Shown piece by piece: positions 3,852 through 17,829 of a DNA stretch of 21,198 nt (position 1 is its first letter; the number at the start of each line of letters is the position of its first letter). The notes beneath the pieces are model-generated. The model saw only the letters and a program-made list of their open reading frames with translations. It was not told where the DNA came from and made no database searches. The position numbers were made by a program, and so were the translations under genes. Source of the stretch: a virus. The stretch is from positions 1-21,198 of IMG/VR virus record IMGVR_UViG_3300034378_000209. One strand, 5' to 3'.

Positions 3852-3924
3852 TAATGTGAATTGCAAAGAACGACAATAATCTGCCTGCATAAATAACGCT
3901 TAACGCTAATAGTTATGTAATTGC

Positions 3925-3950
3925 CGCGCCTCCGATATAGTGGAGGTGCG
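3925..3950 (+). promoter_or_regulatory. Hairpin burying the ribosome binding site of the parB-like gene
   Basis: CGCGCCTCC (3925-3933) pairs with GGAGGTGCG (3942-3950) through nine base pairs including one G-U, closing an 8-nt loop. The right arm contains the whole Shine-Dalgarno GGAGG (3942-3946), seven bases before TTG 3954. This would reduce translation until it is opened by a protein, heat or an upstream event. Confidence 0.55.
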
Positions 3951-3953
3951 AAA

Positions 3954-4607
3954 TTGCTGCCCGTAGAAGACCAATTTTTGCCTTCAGGGGCAAAATACCC
4001 TGCCAGGGTAACTGAGCGCGACCTGACGGCGCTCAAGCCACACCCCGGAAATCCCCGTATTCATACGGAGGAGCAGATCCAGCAACTTTGCCGCTTTCTT
4101 GCGAAATTTGGCTATGCCAAGATCAGCATCGCAGTGCAAGCATCGACCGATCTAATCATGGCAGGGCACGGCGTTGTCGAAGCGCTCTTGCGTATGGGCA
4201 TTACGAAAGTGCTGGTCTACGAGGTGGATCTGCCAGATTCTCTGGCATTAGCCTTCATGCTCGCTGATAACAAGTCACAGGAGATGTCGTCGTGGGATAC
4301 CGACCTGTTGCCCGATCTGCTCTTTGACATTGCAGAATTGCCCGATGTCGAGCTTGAGGATACCGGCTTTGCCGAGGATGAGCTTGCCGCGCTGATGGTC
4401 GATGATGAGCCAAGCAATCAGCGAGAGGGCGATGGCGATTTTCATGACCCAGAGCAAGATAGCTTTGTCAACTTTAGCTTTGGCTCTTACTCCGGGCGCG
4501 TTGCCGACGATATATACCAATCGTTTGTCGAAAAGTATCAGCAGATACAGGAGGATTACGACGATATAATGCTCGATGATGTCCTGCGGAGGTGGCTGAA
4601 TGTCTGA
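3954..4607 (+). CDS. ParB/sulfiredoxin-fold nuclease-like protein
   Basis: 217 aa from TTG 3954, chosen because GGAGG sits seven bases upstream; an in-frame TTG at 3921 lacks a ribosome binding site. The core reads LKPHPGNPRIHTEEQIQQL, then a strand and IMAGHGVVEALLRMG, then FMLADNKSQEMSSWD. This is the ParB-N domain typical of phage proteins encoded next to DNA methyltransferases. The conserved GxxR is replaced by GHGVVEA in the box that usually reads GH.R..A, so the key Arg is missing, and the activity is uncertain. The C-terminus (about 120-217) is acidic. The stop overlaps the start of the methyltransferase gene by 8 bp, indicating coupled expression. Confidence 0.8.
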   Translation: MLPVEDQFLPSGAKYPARVTERDLTALKPHPGNPRIHTEEQIQQLCRFLAKFGYAKISIAVQASTDLIMAGHGVVEALLRMGITKVLVYEVDLPDSLALAFMLADNKSQEMSSWDTDLLPDLLFDIAELPDVELEDTGFAEDELAALMVDDEPSNQREGDGDFHDPEQDSFVNFSFGSYSGRVADDIYQSFVEKYQQIQEDYDDIMLDDVLRRWLNV

Positions 4608-5547
4608 CCTGCGCTCGCGTTTGAGACAAAGCGTCGTCAATCGCCAAGCGATGGAGAGGCGTTTTGGTATTATCCCACTCTCGGTTTTGCGCCTCAGCAG
4701 AAGGAAACTATCCAACAGGATGTTTATATATCAGCGCGAAAGGCCGGACAAGAGAGTCGCCAACGTAAAAAGCGAAGAGAAGGCGAAGAAGCTCAGAGAA
4801 GCTGGCTATCAGCATAAGGGCACTGCCAGCCAGCGCGGTGCGGGCAGGGGCAAGCCGGGCTTGACGGTTATGCCAGCCGACCTTGTCGAATTCTTCATTA
4901 AATATTACGCCAAGCCGGGCGACGTGTATTTAGATCCCTTTATGGGACAGGGCATTCAGATGCAAGTGGCGAAAATTATGGGCTTGCATTATTACGGTTA
5001 CGATCTCTCTAAGGAATTTTTCAGCTATATTAAAGCTGTCAAGGAGAAGATAGACGATGGTAAGACGAGTATCGAAATTACGTGTGGCGATAGCCGATAC
5101 CCGCTTGAGATACCCGATAATATAGGAGATTTCAGCTTTCACAGCCCGCCATATTGGGATATTGAGGACTATGGCGATGAACCCGCTCAGTTGGGTAACG
5201 CTTCTTATAAGGGCTTTTTGCTCGGCATGCAATCGGTAGCTAAAGCTTGGTTGCCGAAATTCAAGGATGACTGCTGGCATATTGTCAATGTGAACGACTT
5301 TCGTAAAGAGGGCAAGTTCTATCCCTATCACGCTGATACAATACGCATATTTCAAGCTGTGGGCTGGGAGCTTGTAGACCTCTGGGTTATCGACCAGCTT
5401 GTAAGTGGGTTATCGAAAGCGTTCGCTGTCAGCTTCAACATGAAAAGGCTCGCCCCGAAGGTTCATGAATACGCATTGGTTTTTAGGAAGGCGAAAAAGT
5501 CAAACAAAAAACACGTCACTGTGAGACAAGTTGCAAAAAGTTTGTAA
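4600..5547 (+). CDS. DNA methyltransferase (SPPY type)
   Basis: 315 aa. DPFMGQG (about residue 107) is the SAM-binding motif I, followed by YYGYDLS (motif II-like) and HSPPYWDIEDY (about 184), the catalytic motif IV. The order I before IV and the SPPY tetrad point to an amino-methyltransferase acting on N4-cytosine or N6-adenine. No restriction enzyme is encoded nearby, so it is probably an orphan phage methyltransferase that protects DNA or alters gene expression. It overlaps the parB-like gene, a common pairing in phages. The N-terminal 90 residues are basic and may bind DNA. Confidence 0.85.
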   Translation: MSDLRSRLRQSVVNRQAMERRFGIIPLSVLRLSRRKLSNRMFIYQRERPDKRVANVKSEEKAKKLREAGYQHKGTASQRGAGRGKPGLTVMPADLVEFFIKYYAKPGDVYLDPFMGQGIQMQVAKIMGLHYYGYDLSKEFFSYIKAVKEKIDDGKTSIEITCGDSRYPLEIPDNIGDFSFHSPPYWDIEDYGDEPAQLGNASYKGFLLGMQSVAKAWLPKFKDDCWHIVNVNDFRKEGKFYPYHADTIRIFQAVGWELVDLWVIDQLVSGLSKAFAVSFNMKRLAPKVHEYALVFRKAKKSNKKHVTVRQVAKSL

Positions 5548-5603: not shown

Positions 5604-5912
5604 ATGTTGACTAAAAAACCGCTAGTAAAACAAATAAGCTTTGAGATTGACGGTAACTTTTCCGACCCTGTATCCGTCTGGCAGAAGTTTCTGGAGGCGC
5701 TAAATGTTGTAAAAGGCATCACGATCCTGGCGACGCTGAAGCACGATTTCCCCGGCGGCGGCGTGTCCGGGATTGTGATCATAGGCGAAAGCCATGCGGC
5801 TATACATACATGGCCGGAGAAGAATCGGGCGTGGGTAGAACTTGTCACCTGCGGCGACCCTGCCAGCTTGACAAGTTTTCGTTATAGAATAACGGATTTA
5901 TTCAAACTTTAA
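5604..5912 (+). CDS. SpeD-like pyruvoyl-dependent decarboxylase
   Basis: 102 aa. The core GGGVSGIVIIGESHAAIHTW followed by PE and VTCGD is the S-adenosylmethionine decarboxylase (SpeD) signature. Aligned without gaps to the Thermotoga maritima enzyme as I remember it, the self-cleaving Ser63 (pyruvoyl source), His68, Cys83, Ser55 and the adenine-stacking Phe49 all coincide. The family makes decarboxylated SAM for spermidine synthesis; some homologues have changed to Arg or Orn decarboxylases, so the substrate is open. The protein is about 20-30 residues shorter than usual at the C-terminus and lacks the GRHL N-terminal motif. No Shine-Dalgarno precedes ATG 5604. It sits between the methyltransferase and the small terminase. 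No spermidine synthase is visible. Confidence 0.87.
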   Translation: MLTKKPLVKQISFEIDGNFSDPVSVWQKFLEALNVVKGITILATLKHDFPGGGVSGIVIIGESHAAIHTWPEKNRAWVELVTCGDPASLTSFRYRITDLFKL

Positions 5913-5965
5913 TTTTCTTTAGGTTTTCTTTGCAAATTTGAATTATTTGGAGGTTTGCTTGGGGC

Positions 5966-6472
5966 GTGAAAGAAAAGCCGAAACATCGCGAGGCATACGA
6001 ATACTTCTATAACTTGGGCGACCATCGCACTAACCGGAAAGTTGCTGAGGCGTTTAAGGTGTCTGAACAGAGCGTCTGCAACTGGCGGAAGGCGTTCAAT
6101 TGGGATAAGCGCGCCGACCAGCGCGACCTTGAGATAGCGACTAAAATCGAGCGGAAGACCAACAGGACGATAGTTGAATCGAAAGCCGAATATCGCGAGG
6201 ACATCAGGCGCTCGTTGAATATAATCAAGCGCGCTTGGAATCAGCTTATAACGTACAAAGACGGCGAAAACGGCAAGGAAATAGTGATAAAAGGGTCGGC
6301 GCAGCAGATCAATCAATTGAGCTTGGCTTTAGATCGATTGATCAAACTTGACCTGATTGTTATGGGCGAAGCTGTGGAAATTGGCGAGAATCAGTTTACA
6401 TTTGAAGTGGTAGGCGTGGATGTGGATAAGTTCCCATCGCCCGCGCCCGCGTCTACAACTGATAATGAATGA
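5966..6472 (+). CDS. terS: Terminase small subunit
   Basis: 168 aa from GTG 5966, with GGAGG at 5949-5953 (spacing somewhat long). Residues about 20-45 (DHRTNRKVAEAFKVSEQSVC) form a helix-turn-helix that would bind the packaging site. A helical middle (about 55-130) probably makes the oligomer, and the C-terminus carries a Pro/Ala tail. It is identified mainly by size, HTH and position directly before the large terminase, with which it overlaps by 8 bp. The sequence resembles phage Terminase_5/PBSX-type small subunits. Confidence 0.8.
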   Translation: MKEKPKHREAYEYFYNLGDHRTNRKVAEAFKVSEQSVCNWRKAFNWDKRADQRDLEIATKIERKTNRTIVESKAEYREDIRRSLNIIKRAWNQLITYKDGENGKEIVIKGSAQQINQLSLALDRLIKLDLIVMGEAVEIGENQFTFEVVGVDVDKFPSPAPASTTDNE

Positions 6473-7865
6473 TAATGGTAAAATCGTATATCGGTTCACG
6501 CCGGCCAATCAGCCGCAAGCTGACGCGTTCGCTTCTCAGGCGACGGCGTTGCTCTTCGATGGGCCTTGGGGAAGCGGCAAGACACAGCTTGGCGCTTCAA
6601 AAGCTCTATTTGTCGGGTGCTATTACCCCAATTCGTGTATAGTGTTTCTCAGGAAGAAGCGTGTCGATCTGAAGCCCACTTTATGGAGCAAGTTCAAGGA
6701 AGTATTGGCGCATATTCCAGATCGGGCAATTGTCGCGAGGAACGATACTGAATTATATCGCAAGCTTAGCAACGGGAGCGAGTTTTTCGGCCTGGGGCTG
6801 GATTCGGTAGGCGATGTCAATAAGCTGGCATCGCGTGAGTATAATTTCATGGTAGTTGAGGAAGCTACCGAATTGATAGAGGACGATTTTGACAGCAAAA
6901 TCATCCGCTGCTTGCGCCTGCCGGGTGCGAAATTTCTTCAGGTGCTGCTTTTATGCAACCCCGGCAGCCCAAGTCATTTTCTCTACAGGCGGTTTATCGA
7001 GTCGCCTATGCCGGGGTATGAGCGCATCGCTGCCGAGATGCTGGATAATCTGCCCCCTATTTATTATGAGTTTATCGAAACGGTAAAGGGCATTCAATAT
7101 CGGCAATACGTGAAGGGCGAATGGGTAGCAACCGAAGGGCTAGTCTACCCGTTCAACCCGCGCAAGCACCTTATTGACAGGTTTGACATACCATCGGATT
7201 GGCGCAGGGTAAACGCCCTGGATTTTGGGTTCGATCATCCGTTCGTATGCCACTTTTGGGCAGTATCGCCCGAAGACGAATGGTATCTTGATAAAGAAAT
7301 CTATCATACGCGGCGTATCGTATCGCGACACGCTGAGGATATTCTTCAGATTTGCAGCCAGCGTGGTATTCCGAAGCCGCGCGTTATTTGCGACCACGAT
7401 AACGAAGATGAGGCCACTTTGCGCTCTTGCAAGATCAATACGCGGAAGGCTAATAAAGCGCGATTACCCGGCCAGCAGAGCGTATATGCGAAATTTGATG
7501 ATGATAAAATATTCTTTTTCAAGGATGGCTTATACGAAATCGACCCGCGCTTGGTGCTGGAAGATCAGCCTTATAAGACGATCATGGAGTTTCCCTATTA
7601 TATGTGGGCAAACACTCAGAAAGAGGACATGATCAAGGAAGGGGATGATGGTATGGATACGATGCGGTATGCTATCCATACCGACAAGATGGTCAGGGAT
7701 ATAACTGTCGATATGCTAGAGAGCGCGAGGACACGCAGCGAGCGCGAAGGAGGAACTTATAAGCAGGCGTATGAGCGCATGGAGGAAAGATTGAGGCAGG
7801 TAAGCGGCTTGCCGCCTGAACACGAAAAAGTTAAGGCGCTACTGAGGGAAGTATTTCGTAAATAG
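6465..7865 (+). CDS. terL: Terminase large subunit (packaging ATPase and nuclease)
   Basis: 466 aa from ATG 6465 (MNDNGKIVYRF), overlapping the small-subunit stop. Walker A is GPWGSGKT (about residue 33), Walker B FMVVEEATE (about 127) and the coupling motif LLCNP (about 165). The RuvC-like nuclease acidic residues appear in NALDFGFDHP (about 256), VICDHDNED (about 307) and EGDDGMDTMRYA (about 393). Both the ATPase and nuclease halves are complete. The protein cuts concatemeric phage DNA and pumps it into proheads through the portal. It resembles Terminase_3/6 (PBSX/Mu gp28-like) proteins. Confidence 0.95.
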   Translation: MNDNGKIVYRFTPANQPQADAFASQATALLFDGPWGSGKTQLGASKALFVGCYYPNSCIVFLRKKRVDLKPTLWSKFKEVLAHIPDRAIVARNDTELYRKLSNGSEFFGLGLDSVGDVNKLASREYNFMVVEEATELIEDDFDSKIIRCLRLPGAKFLQVLLLCNPGSPSHFLYRRFIESPMPGYERIAAEMLDNLPPIYYEFIETVKGIQYRQYVKGEWVATEGLVYPFNPRKHLIDRFDIPSDWRRVNALDFGFDHPFVCHFWAVSPEDEWYLDKEIYHTRRIVSRHAEDILQICSQRGIPKPRVICDHDNEDEATLRSCKINTRKANKARLPGQQSVYAKFDDDKIFFFKDGLYEIDPRLVLEDQPYKTIMEFPYYMWANTQKEDMIKEGDDGMDTMRYAIHTDKMVRDITVDMLESARTRSEREGGTYKQAYERMEERLRQVSGLPPEHEKVKALLREVFRK

Positions 7866-7872
7866 GATGGCT

Positions 7873-7923
7873 TGTAAAGAAAAGTTTACATATGTAACAA
7901 AAACTTTACAGTTGCTGTTACAT
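7873..7923 (+). promoter_or_regulatory. Nested dyads, possible operator
   Basis: TGTAAA (7873-7878) and TTTACA (7885-7890) form a 6-6-6 dyad, and ATGTAAC (7892-7898) and GTTACAT (7917-7923) form a second, wider one. CTTTAC also lies inside the second. The cluster occupies the AT-rich gap between terL and the next gene and could bind a regulator or mark a processing site; it lacks the U-tract of a terminator. Confidence 0.4.
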
Positions 7924-7951
7924 TATTACGCTAGTTGGGGAGGTTAAAGTT

Positions 7952-8155
7952 GTGTCCTTTGACGATTACGGCTCGCGAGAGTGGCAGCGGGTAAAGCGCG
8001 AGATGCAGAGGCAGCGGGCATTAGAGCGCAAGTGCCGTGAGAATAGGAGAAATCCCGCCCCACGGCCCATATACGACGAAGAAGCAACCAAAAGTGGCTT
8101 CTTACACGGTTTACCAATATCTGCGCTTTTCCGAACGACGCGGAGGAGGGGGTAG
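7952..8155 (+). CDS. Small basic hypothetical protein before portal
   Basis: 67 aa from GTG 7952 with GGGGAGG eight bases upstream, the best ribosome binding site in the gap. The first half is a charged helix (REWQRVKREMQRQRALERKC) and the C-terminus ends RTTRRRG. No known family recognised. It lies between terL and the portal gene and ends 7 bp before the portal start; its 3' end carries the GGAGGAGGGGG portal ribosome binding site. Confidence 0.6.
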   Translation: MSFDDYGSREWQRVKREMQRQRALERKCRENRRNPAPRPIYDEEATKSGFLHGLPISALFRTTRRRG

Positions 8156-8162
8156 GTCTGCG

Positions 8163-9596
8163 ATGCAAGCTATAGAGATATTCAAAGGCAAACTTGCCGC
8201 TGTGAGCGCGCCTATCACACAGCTCCTCGCTCGCTATCAGGAGGGACAGAGGCGACTGAAGGGCGATTACAGGAGAGAGCGCGCGACGGGCGACGCTGAC
8301 TTGATCTATTACGCTAATGTCAACCCAGACGACCTGGTTGAGAAGAAGGGCTTGGAACTCTATGACGATATGAAAAAGGACGATCAGGTCAGAGCGGCAT
8401 TGGTCGTCAAGAAGTTTTCGCGCCTGTCTACTCCATACAAGTGGGTAGGAGCCTCGAACGAGCAGATAGATCGCGACCTGGCTAACTTTATGAACTACGC
8501 GGTTGAGCAGATGCCAACTACCTTTGTCAGGACACTTATGTCTATTCTCACAGCTTTGGATTATGGCTATTCAATTTGCGAGAAGAACTTTAGCTATATG
8601 AAGGCTGGCGACTATCCCGGCAGAATTGGGCTTGCTAGCATCAAGAGCAAGAAGCCGCATGACTTTGGCTTTAACTTGGACGATTATGGCAATATCGAGG
8701 AATTATTACAGGAGCAGAAGGGCGTAGAGAAAGAGCTGCCTATAGATAAGTTTATTATCTATACTTATCAGCCGCTATGGGAAAACCCATATGGCGTAAG
8801 CGACTTGAAAGCGGCTTATGAGCCTTACTGGTCGAAAAGCGTGATTTTGAAATTTTGGAACATGCACCTGGAACGCTGGGCATCGCCTGTGCTTGTCGGC
8901 TTCTACGAAGAAGGTATCGATCAAGATATAATAGATAGATTAGTGGATATCCTTGCCGATCTGCAAATCGGCACTGTTGCAAAAGTGCCCGAAGGGATTA
9001 GGATTGAGCCGATACAGATGAAATCGAGCACGGGTGCGCAGTTGTATGAGAAAGCTGTAGAGAAGCGCGATAGGATGATATGCCGCGCTATGCTGGTGCC
9101 CGACCTGCTGGGTATGGGCGAGGCGACTAAGGGCGGCTCATATGCGTTAGGTAAGAAACAGCACGATCTGTTTTTTACTATGCTCACTTTTCTGGGCTGC
9201 GAAATCGAAGAGCTAATAATGGAGCAGTTGACGAAGCAACTGATCGATATGAATTTCGGTAAGGTTGAACGCTATCCGCGCTTCCAATTTGAGCCTTTTG
9301 AGGAGCATAGCAGTGAGCAGGTAGCCAAAATGAATGTGTCTAAAGCACAAGTGCTGCAAATACTCGCTAACGCGGGCTTTATCGACCCCCTTGACGAGAA
9401 CGTTCAGAAAGCCGCGATGGATTACATAAACATACTGCCTGGGGCTGGCAAAGGGTCGATGATGGCAGCAGAGGCACTTGACTTCAAACAGCCGCTCAAA
9501 TTTACCAGCCCCGATGGGCGCGAGGCGTTTGAACTGGAAATCGAGGAGAATATAGCGCGATTCCAGCTATTACAGGACGCGCTGGAGGTAGCATAA
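8163..9596 (+). CDS. Portal protein (DUF935, Mu gp29-like)
   Basis: 477 aa from ATG 8163 (MQAIEIFKGKL), chosen because GGAGGAGGGGGTAGG precedes it; longer in-frame starts overlap the previous gene. Recognisable portal features are DDQVRAALVVKKFSRL (about residue 75), YGYSICEKNF (about 140), IIYTYQPLWENPYGVSDLK (about 200), WASPVLVGFYE (about 240) and LLGMGEATKGGSYALGKKQHD (about 315), all typical of DUF935 portals. The dodecamer forms the DNA channel at the capsid vertex and docks the terminase. An acidic tail follows. Confidence 0.93.
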   Translation: MQAIEIFKGKLAAVSAPITQLLARYQEGQRRLKGDYRRERATGDADLIYYANVNPDDLVEKKGLELYDDMKKDDQVRAALVVKKFSRLSTPYKWVGASNEQIDRDLANFMNYAVEQMPTTFVRTLMSILTALDYGYSICEKNFSYMKAGDYPGRIGLASIKSKKPHDFGFNLDDYGNIEELLQEQKGVEKELPIDKFIIYTYQPLWENPYGVSDLKAAYEPYWSKSVILKFWNMHLERWASPVLVGFYEEGIDQDIIDRLVDILADLQIGTVAKVPEGIRIEPIQMKSSTGAQLYEKAVEKRDRMICRAMLVPDLLGMGEATKGGSYALGKKQHDLFFTMLTFLGCEIEELIMEQLTKQLIDMNFGKVERYPRFQFEPFEEHSSEQVAKMNVSKAQVLQILANAGFIDPLDENVQKAAMDYINILPGAGKGSMMAAEALDFKQPLKFTSPDGREAFELEIEENIARFQLLQDALEVA

Positions 9597-9610
9597 TCAG
9601 AAAAGACAGC

Positions 9611-9727
9611 ATGGTTATATCGAGGGGTGATGTGCATATTCCCCAACCTTTGAAGGTACGAACTCGGCGACAAGGAAAAAAGCCCCGAAAGAGGCGCAGA
9701 CGAAAACGCACGGAAAGGTGGCGGTGA
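9611..9727 (+). CDS. Arg/Lys-rich miniprotein 1
   Basis: 38 aa from ATG 9611 (weak ribosome binding site; GTG 9632 is possible). The N-terminus is ordinary (MVISRGDVHIPQPLKV), then 17 of 38 residues in total are Arg or Lys, including KKPRKRRRRKR. Its TGA overlaps the GTG of the next ORF (9724-9727). The least certain of the three, because the frame that continues into miniprotein 2 is also open here with a less extreme composition. Confidence 0.4.
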   Translation: MVISRGDVHIPQPLKVRTRRQGKKPRKRRRRKRTERWR

Positions 9728-9840
9728 ACGTGCCTAAGAAGAGGAGGCGTGGTGCTCCACCACGTATAACGAAGCGGCGCAGGGAAGAGAAGCGCAAAAG
9801 CACTAAAAAGCGCAAAAGGCGCAGAAAATCATGTAGCTGA
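9724..9840 (+). CDS. Arg/Lys-rich miniprotein 2
   Basis: 38 aa from GTG 9724 (or GTG 9718/9730), with GGAAAGG a short distance upstream. 21 of 38 residues are Arg or Lys, with two Glu and one Cys (MNVPKKRRRGAPPRITKRRR is the start). Codons for Arg are mixed (CGC, CGG, CGT, AGG, AGA), so the composition is not a simple DNA repeat. It shares the Pro-Lys-Lys start with miniprotein 3. Confidence 0.5.
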   Translation: MNVPKKRRRGAPPRITKRRREEKRKSTKKRKRRRKSCS

Positions 9841-9854
9841 GGGAGGTGATAAAC

Positions 9855-9995
9855 ATGCCAAAGAAAAAAAAGCCAAAGAAACGGCTAAGGCCAGGAACAC
9901 CACGGCCGACGGGCAAGAGAAGGCGCAGATCGCGTCGCAGGCGTCTTCAGAGACGGAGCCGGCGCAGGCGTGGTGCGACGACCGGGAGGCGCTAA
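9855..9995 (+). CDS. Protamine-like Arg-rich miniprotein 3
   Basis: 46 aa from ATG 9855 after a near-perfect ribosome binding site GGGAGGTGAT, which strongly supports this frame. 26 of 46 residues are Arg or Lys and none is acidic: a Lys-rich start (MPKKKKPKKRLRPGTPRP), then blocks of four Arg separated by single Ser or Leu-Gln. Composition and spacing resemble protamines and viral core peptides such as adenovirus mu. It would bind DNA or RNA without sequence specificity. A long in-frame opening on another frame leads into the next gene but has no start codon. Confidence 0.62.
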   Translation: MPKKKKPKKRLRPGTPRPTGKRRRRSRRRRLQRRSRRRRGATTGRR

Positions 9996-10036: not shown

Positions 10037-11131
10037 TTGAAACTCGATATAAACGATTTGTTTAAGTTGGGCAGTAACTGGCATCAGTTCGTTCCCTATT
10101 CGCCCGAAGAGTTGAGCGACAGGATTCAGGCGATTACGTGTCATAGAGCGTGGGCGATCAGCTCGATCAAAATGGAGCGCTTGCTCCCCTATCGGTATAT
10201 ATGGGAAATAGAAGCGATAATCGACAGCCAACAGGCGGGGAAAGAAGCCGGTTATGAGGGTGTTATTTTACAATTTCTTATCTGGGTGGAAAGGCTCGAT
10301 AAACTTTATTTGCCACCGGGCCTGCAATTGCCTGAAGATCTTGGAAGTAGCCTGAGAGAAGCCATTGGCTATTGCCTGAGAACGCCGGAATACCGCAACG
10401 GTGCGAGACTGTATGCTGCCATCTTTGACGAACGGTTGCGTAAGCGCGTTCGCACAAAGACGGATGAATTTATCTGGGAGCGCCTCTATCCGGGCACTCT
10501 ATTTGCGCCATTGGGCGTTTTCCTTGAGCATATGAATCGCTATAAATTTGTAGCTGACACAATTGGGGATTACATCTTCGGGACTAATGAGGTTTTGGAC
10601 TTGGGCTGCGGGCTTGGCTATGGAGCTAAGCACCTCGCCACAAGATTACCAGGTCTCCAAATCTTCGCTGTAGATAGGGATTCCGAAACGCTGGCCGATG
10701 CCGCGAAATATTACAGCGCTGACAATATAACGTGGGTTTGGGATGATGTTGTAGGCTTGGGCGGCTATTACGCTGATGTAATAGTCTGCTTGGAGCTTTT
10801 AGAGCATATGCATCGACGCGCTTACCCAACGCGGGACGATCTGTTGAATACTATCATACGGCTGTTGAATCCTGGCGGGATTGCCTTTATTTCAACGCCC
10901 AATTCTGAATCCGAACGTCGACGAAATATACGCAACCCATATCATACGTGCGAATTGACGTACGATGAATTTAGCGGGTTATTGAACAGGCATTTTGGCG
11001 AATTTGTAATCGGCTCGCTGTTGTGCAACAATCCTCTTGCACAAGAGCGCTGTTGTATCGGTTTTGTTCCTCCGAAGGAGCATCTATCACAAGTGGCTGG
11101 GTTTATAGCTATTTGTAGGAATCCCAGATGA
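10037..11131 (+). CDS. SAM-dependent methyltransferase with unknown N-terminal domain
   Basis: 364 aa from TTG 10037 (GGAG about 11 bases upstream, a modest start). Residues about 185-364 form a class I methyltransferase: VLDLGCGLGYGAKHLA (motif I), IFAVDRDSET (motif II), VCLELLEHMH and LLNPGGIAFISTPNS (post-motifs). The first 170 residues are helical and unrecognised. There is no DPPY or cytosine-methylase motif, so the target may be a small molecule, protein, RNA or glycan rather than DNA base nitrogen. It stands between the portal and structural genes. Its stop overlaps the next start (ATGA). Confidence 0.82.
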   Translation: MKLDINDLFKLGSNWHQFVPYSPEELSDRIQAITCHRAWAISSIKMERLLPYRYIWEIEAIIDSQQAGKEAGYEGVILQFLIWVERLDKLYLPPGLQLPEDLGSSLREAIGYCLRTPEYRNGARLYAAIFDERLRKRVRTKTDEFIWERLYPGTLFAPLGVFLEHMNRYKFVADTIGDYIFGTNEVLDLGCGLGYGAKHLATRLPGLQIFAVDRDSETLADAAKYYSADNITWVWDDVVGLGGYYADVIVCLELLEHMHRRAYPTRDDLLNTIIRLLNPGGIAFISTPNSESERRRNIRNPYHTCELTYDEFSGLLNRHFGEFVIGSLLCNNPLAQERCCIGFVPPKEHLSQVAGFIAICRNPR

Positions 11132-15088: not shown

Positions 15089-16768
15089 ATGAATTTCGAT
15101 CTGGATAAAGAAGAGCTTGATAACCTCAGCGATGAGGAGCTTGGACAGCATTTTCGATATATACTTGGCGAATCCGAATATACAGAGGGCGACGCATCTG
15201 ATGACGAAGCTGATGAAGATGCGAGCGAAGAGGATATGAATAGCGATAATCCAGATAGTTCCGATAATCCCGACGATTCCGATGAGAGCGAAGATGGGCA
15301 GGATATAGAGGATTATGGCGACTGGCCGGTTGACGACATGACTGGCTTACCCAAGCGGCTCACTGTAGCAGATATGGAAAAGTTAAGCGACTCAAAGCTG
15401 GGTAAGCTCGTAAGAACGTGGCTAAAGCAAAGACTCGCTCGGAAGTCTATCGATCTGCTGGTATTCGGCAGCGAACAGGAGGCAGATGCCGAAGAGTTGG
15501 CAGAAAAAGGCCAGCAAGATGGCGATAAGACCTATGCGCTCAAAGACGTTGCTATTTTTGCCACAGGTGAATATAAGAAGAAGAAATGGACGCTAAAGCA
15601 CCTACGGCAGATAAAGGCTAACTATGATAAATTCAAGGGCAAGATCACGCCCCCGCTCAAGATTGGGCATGGCGTACAGCCCAAAATTGACACGAGAAAG
15701 TCCAAGAGCGAGCAGCCAGCCGCTGGCTGGGTGACAGCATTGCGACTTAAAGGCAATAAGCTATATGCCGACCTCGCCAATATCCCGAAGGTGGTTTACG
15801 ACCTATTGGTCAAGAAAGCGTATAAACGGCTCTCATCCGAGATATATATCGACTTCAAGGACGACACGGGCAAGAATCATGGGCCGGCGTTAGCGGCTGT
15901 GGCACTTCTGGGCACCAGCCCGCCTGCTATCAAGTCCTTGCCCGAAATCGACGCGAGGTATGCGGAGTTAGCTGAAGAGAATGAGACTGAGACGGTAGAA
16001 TTTGCTTTGGTTCAGGATCTGATCTTAGCAGAAGCGGCATCGGGAAGCGATGCTGAGGACACAGAAGGAGGTTTGGAAGACATGGCTGACGAAGAAAGAG
16101 ACCAAGAACTATCGGAAGAGGAAGCTGAAGATAGTCCAACTGGTTCTGAAAAGCCGGATGAGAAAGAAGAAAAGCCGGATGAAAAAGAGGAAACTTCAGA
16201 ATCAACCGATACAGAAAGTCCCGATCCCAATATAGCGAAATTGCTGAGCGAAAATTCCGCATTAAGGGAGCGCGTTCAGCAGTTGGAACAGGCATTTAAA
16301 GACGAGCAGCGCGAAAAGCGGCACATAGAGGAGAAGGCGTTAGTCGAGAAGCTGAAAGAGGATGGCAGGCTCTTACCTGCTAACGAGGTGGATATATACA
16401 GGCTTTTCGACGCTTATGCTGACGACAGCAAGCCCGTCAAGTTTGCCGAGAAAGCCGACGATGGCACTGAGCGCGAAGTTGAGACAACCGCATATAAGCT
16501 CTTCAGGGCGCATTTGGAGAAGCTGCCGCAGGTTGTCGATTATTCGGAGCGCAGCCCGGCCAGTGAATCGGCCAGGCCCGGCAAGGCAAGCTCTGACAAG
16601 AAATCGAAAGGTGAACCCGATCTGGACGTGGGCGAGACGTGGACAGGCGAAGATTTGCATGGTCGCATTGTCGCTTATATGGAAGCCAATCCGGAGAAGG
16701 TTAAAGAATACGCTGAAGCTAATGGCGTCAGCGAATATGAAGCTGCGATGGATCTAATTCAGCAATAA
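15089..16768 (+). CDS. Mu gpI-like prohead protease fused to scaffold
   Basis: 559 aa from ATG 15089 after GGGGAGGGAT. The first 80 residues are very acidic. Residues about 155-290 carry the Mu I-protein pattern: WTLKHLRQIKANYDKFKGKI, PPLKIGHG, PAAGWVTALRLKGNKLYADL, YKRLSSEIYIDF and AAVALLGTSPPAIKSL. The rest (about 330-559) is a scaffold-like acidic region with a short tandem repeat (EKPDEKE twice), a coiled coil (ALRERVQQLEQAFKDEQREK) and a helical tail. In Mu, gpI cuts the scaffold after assembly and the scaffold gene Z is nested in its 3' end. The same design is present here. Confidence 0.82.
   Translation: MNFDLDKEELDNLSDEELGQHFRYILGESEYTEGDASDDEADEDASEEDMNSDNPDSSDNPDDSDESEDGQDIEDYGDWPVDDMTGLPKRLTVADMEKLSDSKLGKLVRTWLKQRLARKSIDLLVFGSEQEADAEELAEKGQQDGDKTYALKDVAIFATGEYKKKKWTLKHLRQIKANYDKFKGKITPPLKIGHGVQPKIDTRKSKSEQPAAGWVTALRLKGNKLYADLANIPKVVYDLLVKKAYKRLSSEIYIDFKDDTGKNHGPALAAVALLGTSPPAIKSLPEIDARYAELAEENETETVEFALVQDLILAEAASGSDAEDTEGGLEDMADEERDQELSEEEAEDSPTGSEKPDEKEEKPDEKEETSESTDTESPDPNIAKLLSENSALRERVQQLEQAFKDEQREKRHIEEKALVEKLKEDGRLLPANEVDIYRLFDAYADDSKPVKFAEKADDGTEREVETTAYKLFRAHLEKLPQVVDYSERSPASESARPGKASSDKKSKGEPDLDVGETWTGEDLHGRIVAYMEANPEKVKEYAEANGVSEYEAAMDLIQQ
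16082..16768 (+). CDS. Nested in-frame scaffold protein (Mu gpZ-like)
   Basis: An internal in-frame ATG at 16082 (MADEERDQELSEEEAEDS) is preceded by GGAGG at 16067-16071, ten bases upstream, a real ribosome binding site inside the protease gene. It would give a 228-aa acidic coiled-coil protein identical to the C-terminus of the protease, matching the I/Z arrangement of Mu and C/Nu3 of lambda. The internal start is inferred from sequence only. Confidence 0.62.
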   Translation: MADEERDQELSEEEAEDSPTGSEKPDEKEEKPDEKEETSESTDTESPDPNIAKLLSENSALRERVQQLEQAFKDEQREKRHIEEKALVEKLKEDGRLLPANEVDIYRLFDAYADDSKPVKFAEKADDGTEREVETTAYKLFRAHLEKLPQVVDYSERSPASESARPGKASSDKKSKGEPDLDVGETWTGEDLHGRIVAYMEANPEKVKEYAEANGVSEYEAAMDLIQQ

Positions 16769-16785: not shown

Positions 16786-17229
16786 ATGCCCGAAAGCACA
16801 GGCAAGCCAGACCGGTCGTATAGGGCGGGGGAGGATCTTTCATCCTCTCAATATAGGGTAGTGGTCTTTAGCACTACTACTGATGACGATGTTACTCTCC
16901 CCGGCGCTAGAGGTGCTGGCAGAATTGCTGGCATACTTCAGGACAAGCCCGAAAATAACGTGGCGGCTTCGGTGCGATTCGAGGGCGTCTCGTGGGTTAA
17001 GCTGGCGAAAGCAGTTACGGCTGGTGACGCGTTGATGGTAGCCGCTGCCACAGGCACGGTCGAGAGGCAGAATGGTTCTAGCGCAATGGTTGGCATCGCC
17101 CTTGAGACGGGTGTTGCTAACGAGCTAATTGAATGTTACGTTCAGATCATACCATACAATCAACTGGCAAGTAGCAGCTCGTCAAGCAGTTCTTCATCCT
17201 CTAGCTCATCCTCATCTTCAAGCGCCTAG
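16786..17229 (+). CDS. DUF2190-like capsid decoration protein with 18-Ser tail
   Basis: 147 aa from ATG 16786 after GGGAGGTGAC. The repeated beta pattern (VVVFSTTTDDDVTLPG, RIAGILQDKPENN, VSWVKLAKAVTAGDALMVAA, MVGIALETGVANELIECYVQ) is that of DUF2190/gp35-like proteins that sit on the capsid surface. It ends with 18 consecutive Ser (17170-17223) encoded by mixed AGY and TCN codons, then Ala. A paralogue follows at 17314. The tails would project from the capsid in hundreds of copies. Confidence 0.75.
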   Translation: MPESTGKPDRSYRAGEDLSSSQYRVVVFSTTTDDDVTLPGARGAGRIAGILQDKPENNVAASVRFEGVSWVKLAKAVTAGDALMVAAATGTVERQNGSSAMVGIALETGVANELIECYVQIIPYNQLASSSSSSSSSSSSSSSSSSA

Positions 17230-17313: not shown

Positions 17314-17829
17314 ATGCCTGAAGCGACAGGAAAACCCGACAGATCCTACCGAGCGGGTGAAGATCTGTCCAGTTCGATATATAGGATCGTTGTATTCAAC
17401 ACAACGACTGACGACGATGTGGAGCTGCCCTCGGCGGCTGCTGCTCAGCGGATTGCAGGTATACTACAAAATAAGCCTGAGAATAACGAGGCTGCTAGTG
17501 TGAGGTTTGAAGGTGTATCGTGGGTTAAGCTTGCGAGCGCTGTCAGTGCCGGTGACGCCCTACAGGTTGCCGATGCGACTGGCGCTGCGATGAAGCAGAA
17601 CAATTACCACGATATGGTAGGAATTGCGCTGGAAACAGGGGTTGCGAATGAGATTATCGAATGCTATGTCCAAATAGTACCGATGGCGCAGCTTTATAGC
17701 TCAAGTTCCTCGTCCTCATCGTCTTCGTCCTCATCTTCCAGCAGTTCGTCAAGTTCGTCATCCTCATCTTCCAGCAGCTCGTCAAGTAGCTCATCCTCAT
17801 CCAGCAGTTCGTCAAGTTCTTCTGGATAA
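17314..17829 (+). CDS. Paralogous DUF2190-like decoration protein with 42-Ser tail
   Basis: 171 aa from ATG 17314 after GAGGAGGGAT. The body is closely similar to that of the preceding gene (shared GKPDRSYRAGEDLSSS, VVVF/IVVF, RIAGILQ.KPENN, VRFEGVSWVKLA, MVGIALETGVANE.IECYVQI), so the pair arose by tandem duplication. It ends with 42 Ser and one Gly. Body differences lie mainly in surface-type residues. It immediately precedes the major capsid gene. Confidence 0.75.
   Translation: MPEATGKPDRSYRAGEDLSSSIYRIVVFNTTTDDDVELPSAAAAQRIAGILQNKPENNEAASVRFEGVSWVKLASAVSAGDALQVADATGAAMKQNNYHDMVGIALETGVANEIIECYVQIVPMAQLYSSSSSSSSSSSSSSSSSSSSSSSSSSSSSSSSSSSSSSSSSSG
17698..17823 (+). repeat. Poly-serine coding tract, 42 codons
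   Basis: The tract uses six Ser codons in irregular order with imperfect copies of a unit of roughly 30 bp (TCATCTTCCAGCAG-type followed by TCGTCAAG). Both the mixed codons and imperfect unit suggest growth by duplication followed by selection to keep Ser. Confidence 0.8.

Follow-up and report, generated by a model that had tools for sequence, protein, structure and literature searches.

The window analysed here is a whole virus record of IMG/VR (IMGVR_UViG_3300034378_000209; 21,198 bp), in which a gene for a homologue of the S-adenosylmethionine (SAM) decarboxylase SpeD lies just upstream of the terminase genes. We found that the conserved partners of SpeD are the two genes upstream of it, which code for a ParB-like protein and an amino-DNA-methyltransferase-like enzyme (MTase), and not the arginine-rich miniproteins with which it had been grouped in a preliminary description of this DNA. 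Residues of the MTase cofactor pocket covary with the presence of SpeD. Taken together, the sequence data suggest that SpeD probably takes third place in a cassette of phage genes for DNA modification, in which the adjacent "MTase" would use decarboxylated SAM (dcSAM) to aminopropylate the phage DNA. N-(3-aminopropyl) cytosine or adenine would then be a new class of DNA modification, made by an aminopropyltransferase that evolved from an amino-methyltransferase via changes in the cofactor pocket, with the dcSAM coming from the SpeD of the same operon and covalently bound positive charges being left on the genome; we consider this fairly likely.

In the proposed mechanism SpeD would convert SAM to dcSAM, and the MTase-like enzyme, with its rebuilt SAM-carboxylate site, would accept dcSAM. 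The 3-aminopropyl group would be moved to an exocyclic amine of a base, cytosine N4 or adenine N6, and methylthioadenosine would be released. Each modified base would gain a primary amine that is positive at neutral pH. Such amines on the bases would be expected to protect against restriction, and they may also offset part of the charge of the packaged DNA. The preliminary description had SpeD supplying positive charge to the phage DNA; this outcome may be right, but the predicted route is covalent aminopropylation, in which the miniproteins are not involved.

The ParB-MTase-SpeD cassette

The cassette starts with the ParB-like gene (3921..4607, + strand), which has tblastn homologues in the viral loci L010, L012 and L041 (E 1e-16 to 1e-20). 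Two of the four aligned ParB-like members match PF02195 (ParB_N; best 1.8e-7), the window member itself staying under the threshold. The MTase gene, for which we propose the function of a DNA aminopropyltransferase (4600..5547, + strand), overlaps the ParB gene by 8 nt; its product matches PF01555 (E=2.8e-20) and phrog_12517 over almost the full length. The third gene (5604..5912, + strand) codes for a class 1b S-adenosylmethionine decarboxylase (AdoMetDC) homologue of 102 aa. The preliminary description had placed a SpeD-like decarboxylase just 5′ of the gene for the small terminase subunit (terS; phrog_6299, E=5e-22), and this was borne out; it had overlooked the gene for the N6/N4 DNA methylase directly 5′ of SpeD, and the ParB-like gene.

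The window SpeD matches PF02675 with 59.7 bits (cut-off 25; E=4e-16), and its residues 13-87 align without gaps to the Thermotoga AdoMetDC 1tlu. The pyruvoyl residue Ser63 (codon 5790-5792), His68 and Cys83 (Thermotoga numbering) are all present and in register. Among the cassette SpeDs, Ser63 is conserved in 67 of 67 complete proteins, His68 in 66 of 67 and Cys83 in 68 of 68. The profile match and the alignment confirm that the window SpeD gene is real and keeps every predicted catalytic residue. Both short-type SpeDs (window, L010, L012, L041, L057) and canonical ones (L048, L051, L056, L059) are found in the cassettes. Since canonical SpeDs accompany the same MTase clade, the window-type SpeDs probably do the same job. 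One MTase clade thus carries SpeDs of differing types, which suggests a functional need for SpeD beyond co-inheritance. An E. coli strain deleted for speD regains spermidine when it is given the SpeD of the cultured Croceibacter phage P2559S, which is therefore a true SAM decarboxylase (PMC9992855). It had been claimed that such a gene is unusual in a phage; this is wrong for SpeD, which is the commonest polyamine enzyme in phages (PMC9992855) and for which a single query matched 149 phage records.

Altogether, the ParB-MTase-SpeD trio, or a pair from it, was found again in about 65 other viral loci. Scans led by SpeD identified five divergent viral lineages with a short-type SpeD (50-56% identity, contig GC 50-67%), and in four of these ParB and MTase genes lie directly upstream: L010, L012, L041 and L009/L008, the last with ParB and MTase fused. 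At L002:7789-8294, within the head-tail cluster of a Mu-like phage, SpeD follows a truncated ParB gene without an MTase, which is a decayed or rearranged cassette. L012:6643-9342 encodes two Q-type MTases with a homing-endonuclease-looking open reading frame (ORF) between them and a single SpeD after them. In a scan led by the MTase, ParB is located 5′ of the gene in all 13 lineages of the close, window-type family and SpeD 3′ of it in 10 of the 13; in a distant family (L061-L081) SpeD was found only in L064. A third scan comprised 80 ParB-MTase loci of the P2559S type, 53 of which have SpeD. The start of SpeD overlaps the stop of the MTase gene in 55 of the 65 starts measured.

The arrangement is also present in cultured phages. 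In P2559S (host Croceibacter atlanticus HTCC2559) gp66, a ParB-MTase, overlaps gp67, the SpeD, and in Pseudomonas (Stutzerimonas) phage ZRG1 (host Stutzerimonas stutzeri NCTC10475) the genes for ParB-MTase, SpeD, a DUF1441 protein and TerL follow each other in this order. A scan of genome contigs with the short SpeD alignment matched chiefly the SpeDs of hosts, and the ParB-MTase cassette was absent from all six neighbourhoods that we looked at. The closeness of SpeD to the terminase genes can be explained by the cassette, because ParB-MTase sits just upstream of terS/terL even without SpeD, as in Fusobacterium phage Funu2.

Covariation of the MTase cofactor pocket with SpeD

The window MTase contains the FxGxG and S/D-PPY motifs of the N6/N4 amino-DNA-methyltransferases, and N6_N4_Mtase is its sole Pfam match (E up to 0.1). 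The motifs DPF.GQG and SPPY are invariant in its five closest relatives, and catalytic motif IV, SPPY (residues 182-185; 5143..5154, + strand), is invariant in a 25-member alignment. The AlphaFold2 (AF2) model has a Rossmann MTase fold (predicted local distance difference test score, pLDDT, 82.6). Among the 50 PDB matches listed for this model the nearest structures are Trm11/TrmN/Trm14 (Z ~20); spermidine synthase is not among the 50 listed, which does not prove its absence. By its Pfam match the window enzyme is not a member of the spermidine synthase family, and its likeness to spermidine synthase is functional.

Two positions of motif I (F-M-G-Q-G-I-Q) are of interest here, Q117 (codon 4948..4950, + strand) and Q120 (codon 4957..4959, + strand). 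In an alignment of 115 MTases the column of Q120 is non-basic (F, Q, Y, L or M) in all 68 SpeD-linked enzymes and R or K in 42 of the 47 SpeD-less ones (Fisher p=3e-26, a value that ignores kinship). When all MTase columns were ranked blindly by their mutual information with SpeD (113 MTases), the Q120 column came first, as it did in the fusion family; within the window family a single column, gappy and hypervariable, stands just ahead of it. A column just before motif I (M91/L221) ranked second and the column of Q117 (D247 in P2559S) fourth overall. At the Q117-equivalent position all 56 SpeD-linked fusion enzymes, which are of the P2559S type, have Asp or Glu, and their residue at +3 is F, L, M or Y; in the family of the window enzyme both positions are Q instead of the acid and the hydrophobic residue. 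The AF2 models put the two covarying residues at the junction of beta1, loop and helix A.

The same pattern is visible in the whole motif. In the third scan motif I reads AGD[T/S]VFG or a near variant with SpeD, and AGGSVRG, AGDTQKG or GGEQTKG without it. Members of the window family have GQG[I/V]Q where SpeD is present, and GQGVR (L050, L053) or GHNSR where it is missing; L064, located in the GHNSR neighbourhood, combines GQGAQ with SpeD. On a tree from which the motif columns were left out, the presence of SpeD switches about ten times. Across eight supported independent pairs the residue switches along with SpeD in a mean of 4.4 (3-5) and in the reverse direction in none. SpeD is likewise beside none of the 77 R-type (GGSVR) MTases of an additional sample, which covered 80 loci around L009; two or three of these contigs had been sampled before, and some are almost identical to one another.

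Published work on related enzymes suggests why these positions matter. In a phmmer alignment (query 94-145 to chain 175-226) Q117 falls on S198 of M1.HpyAVI, which contacts the terminal carboxyl group of SAM (PMC5173035). Spermidine synthase binds the amine of dcSAM with Asp103 of motif I, a residue assumed to repel SAM at its carboxyl group, and the exchanges D103I, Q79T and V106T turn the enzyme into a SAM methyltransferase, in which Thr106 is placed to hydrogen-bond the SAM carboxyl (PMC3725402). The choice between dcSAM and SAM is thus set by the equivalent positions in spermidine synthase: because its motif I is GGGDGGV/T, the spacing of D and D+3 is identical to that of the two covarying MTase positions. 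In the aminopropyltransferase BpsA the motif I Asp of GDDD likewise orients dcSAM (PMC12979288). The predicted pocket residues of the window MTase argue against SAM as its donor.

Several observations weigh against the proposed mechanism. The window-type SpeDs show F-P-G-x-G, with the Pro displaced compared to the Thermotoga F-x-P-x-G, which may mean the loss of a residue that possibly marks true AdoMetDCs. The acidic signature is limited to the P2559S type, the window family having Q and not D/E at the first of the two positions. The phylogeny-corrected sign test is borderline (median p 0.0625), the switches being few, and other MTase columns are also associated with SpeD, partly by descent. 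Five SpeD-less MTases lack R/K at the Q120 column: L058, a 4.3-kb fragment, has Q, L139 has T and L162 has G, and the other two, L134:343-1776 and L141:3749-5095, lie inside a SpeD-linked clade, where they have kept the Phe but, together with SpeD, lost the acid to the deletion of a single codon.

Further ParB-MTases were observed without SpeD. Those of L116, L117, L119, L128 and L168 have an acid and a Lys in motif I (GDTQKG or GDITKG), a pocket that may suit SAM or another cofactor. Beside the GGEQTKG-type enzymes of L153 and L158 a gene of 162 aa with a PTGSGETL-type motif (L153:5325-5813, L158:4121-4609) takes the place of SpeD. It had no Pfam match; it resembles a reduced pyridoxal phosphate (PLP)-dependent synthase and could belong to another DNA modification with an accessory enzyme. 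In Pseudanabaena phage Pam4 (L045:1219-3708) a single protein of 829 aa combines a ParB-like domain, a stretch annotated as PLP-dependent enzyme and a GGSVR MTase, so that ParB-MTase is here linked with small-molecule enzymes of a third kind.

Neighbouring genes and the basic mini-ORFs

Profile matches give the gene order 3′ of SpeD, outside the cassette, as terS (5966..6472), the large terminase subunit gene terL (6471..7865; PF04466, Terminase_3, E=3.4e-12) and a Mu-type portal gene (8163..9596; PF06074, Portal_Mu, E=6.9e-49), all on the + strand. No confirmed close kin of the portal or TerL were found among the viral contigs searched. At the left end of the window a TnpB-like (IS605-family) ORF of 387 aa, identified by eye, lies antisense to the other genes (174-1337, - strand). 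Two tandem paralogous small proteins (16786-17229 and 17314-17829), each ending in a long poly-serine tail, are likely head decoration proteins.

Downstream of the portal gene three basic mini-ORFs are located on the + strand. Mini-ORF 1 (9632..9727, 31 aa) starts with GTG, an ATG at 9611 being possible, and has only a weak Shine-Dalgarno sequence (SD). Mini-ORF 2 spans 9730..9840 (alternative start 9718; 36 aa, MPKKRRRG...). Mini-ORF 3 (9855..9995, alternative start 9846; 46 aa, MPKKKKPKK...) is the only one with a strong SD (GGGAGGTGAT...ATG 9855), with GGAGGTGAT located 4 nt before the ATG, and is the likeliest of the three to be translated. The preliminary description had reported three very basic miniproteins here. 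The ORFs do exist, and their K/R richness is above that expected from composition, since three such ORFs occurred in none of 1,000 dinucleotide shuffles of the same 440 bp. Their codon log-odds of -0.51, -0.33 and -0.75 are non-coding-like compared to +0.02 to +0.47 in trusted genes, although this test is biased against any Arg-rich protein.

Profile searches gave no family matches for the three mini-ORFs, and no counterparts were found after the portal gene of L046, which has the MTase nearest to that of the window, or in the other related loci checked. As candidates for protamine-like proteins, they are rich in Arg, have no homologues that we could find and are of uncertain translation. Caution is also advised because such ORFs arise by chance: the K/R-rich ORFs at 15418-15528 and 16050-16235 are out-of-frame shadows of a Glu/Lys-rich protease gene. 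We also considered mini-ORF 3 as an out-of-frame view of an N-terminal extension of the methyltransferase gene at 10037, whose frame is open from 9770; this candidate was rejected (score -0.115, no ATG, GTG or TTG start).

Alternative explanations and known systems

The cassette might serve polyamine supply: SpeD would raise dcSAM, the host spermidine synthase would make more spermidine for translation or packaging, and the MTase next door would be an ordinary one. Phage SpeDs restore spermidine in E. coli (PMC9992855), and the SpeDs carried by cyanophages are mostly annotated near replication genes and not beside such an MTase. We nevertheless consider extra spermidine unlikely as the explanation, as it accounts neither for the locking of SpeD to ParB-MTase with overlapping genes nor for the covariation of the pocket and the missing SpeD at the 77 R-type relatives. 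It is also quite unlikely that SpeD acts against SAM-dependent host defences, by using up SAM or by a flood of dcSAM, with the MTase pocket altered so that the phage enzyme still works in such a cell. Phage SAM lyases are a known counter-defence (PMC7877911), and dcSAM is said to inhibit methylation competitively (PMC2933235). An acid at the site of the SAM carboxyl and the loss of the Arg should weaken the binding of SAM and favour dcSAM, which is the reverse of dcSAM resistance, and the tight operon pairing would rather predict that one enzyme uses the product of the other.

Arginine or ornithine decarboxylase activity has been proven for some phage SpeD homologues (PMC9992855, PMC10407285), and the window SpeD with its displaced Pro could be such a neofunctionalised enzyme, providing agmatine or putrescine for packaging or for conjugation to DNA. 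The SpeD of P2559S, which has the same arrangement, is a true AdoMetDC, short and canonical SpeDs serve one MTase clade, and the changed cofactor site of the MTase would be left unexplained, which makes a switch of substrate decidedly improbable. The proposal of the preliminary description, a two-part module in which SpeD and the Arg-rich miniproteins jointly neutralise the packaged DNA, was found to be unsupported and is extremely improbable. Both elements lie near the packaging genes, and mini-ORF 3 has its strong SD and all three their excess of K/R. The coding statistics speak against them, and the suggested survey of relatives for co-occurrence with speD detected no such miniproteins in any relative whose region was readable, the conserved partner of SpeD in the other loci being ParB-MTase.

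DNA aminopropylation, if true, would add a cationic one-step hypermodification to DNA chemistry and would account for the many phages that carry a lone SpeD without the remaining polyamine pathway. A sequence-specific DNA aminopropyltransferase that leaves a primary amine on the DNA would also be a useful labelling tool. A literature search that covered few subscription journals and preprints gave no account either of a ParB-MTase-SpeD cassette or of dcSAM-dependent or aminopropyl modification of phage DNA. The claim is open to direct testing in the cultured phages P2559S and ZRG1.

Phages with hypermodified DNA are known. The DNA of phage PhiW-14 contains putrescinylthymine. Like this phage, M6 has hypermodified DNA, in its case with an aminoethyl base; thymine is modified in these phages (PMC5977210, PMC6449724), whereas we propose that an exocyclic amine receives its group from dcSAM in one step. 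The ParB-linked MTases of phages without SpeD (Listeria B054 gp77, Fusobacterium Funu2, Microcystis Mae-JY30) belong to the same protein family as the window MTase and sometimes occupy the same spot upstream of the terminase genes. They differ in motif I, which is GGSVR or GGVIR, and no SpeD was found next to them; their phages are not among the SpeD matches listed.

With spermidine synthase and BpsA the cassette MTases of the P2559S type would share the use of dcSAM and a motif I acid (GGGDG, GDDD) that holds the aminopropyl amine, and with spermidine synthase also the hydrophobic residue at D+3 (V106). The two known enzymes belong to other families and act on polyamines, whereas the phage enzymes match PF01555 and carry S/C-PPY. 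A separate observation concerns a human-gut phage contig (L007:1606-3273; MT839461), in which SpeD makes up the C-terminal portion of a protein that otherwise looks like BpsA, a branched-chain aminopropyltransferase; this likeness was judged by eye from the GDDD and DPPY motifs.

The closest precedent is CmoA/CmoX, of which ParB-MTase-SpeD would be the dcSAM counterpart. CmoA of Synechococcus phage S-B43 makes carboxy-SAM (Cx-SAM) for the DNA carboxymethyltransferase CmoX, which leads to C5-carboxymethylation of cytosine; no N6/N4 candidates linked to CmoA were found in that study, whose text is silent on decarboxylated SAM, on SpeD and on aminopropyl groups (PMC12783734). In both systems (and with CmoY) a phage enzyme turns SAM into an analogue that a phage DNA-MTase homologue uses, or would use, a ParBc protein is encoded on many contigs, and the pocket has a changed residue that suits, or would suit, the analogue. 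If confirmed, the cassette would be the second natural case of a phage that supplies its DNA enzyme with a SAM analogue of its own making. The two differ in their chemistry: CmoA/CmoX combines Cx-SAM with a C5-MTase and gives a carboxylate, whereas the window enzyme matches PF01555 and no C5-MTase family, and SpeD and dcSAM combined with an N4/N6 amino-MTase are predicted to give a cationic aminopropyl amine.

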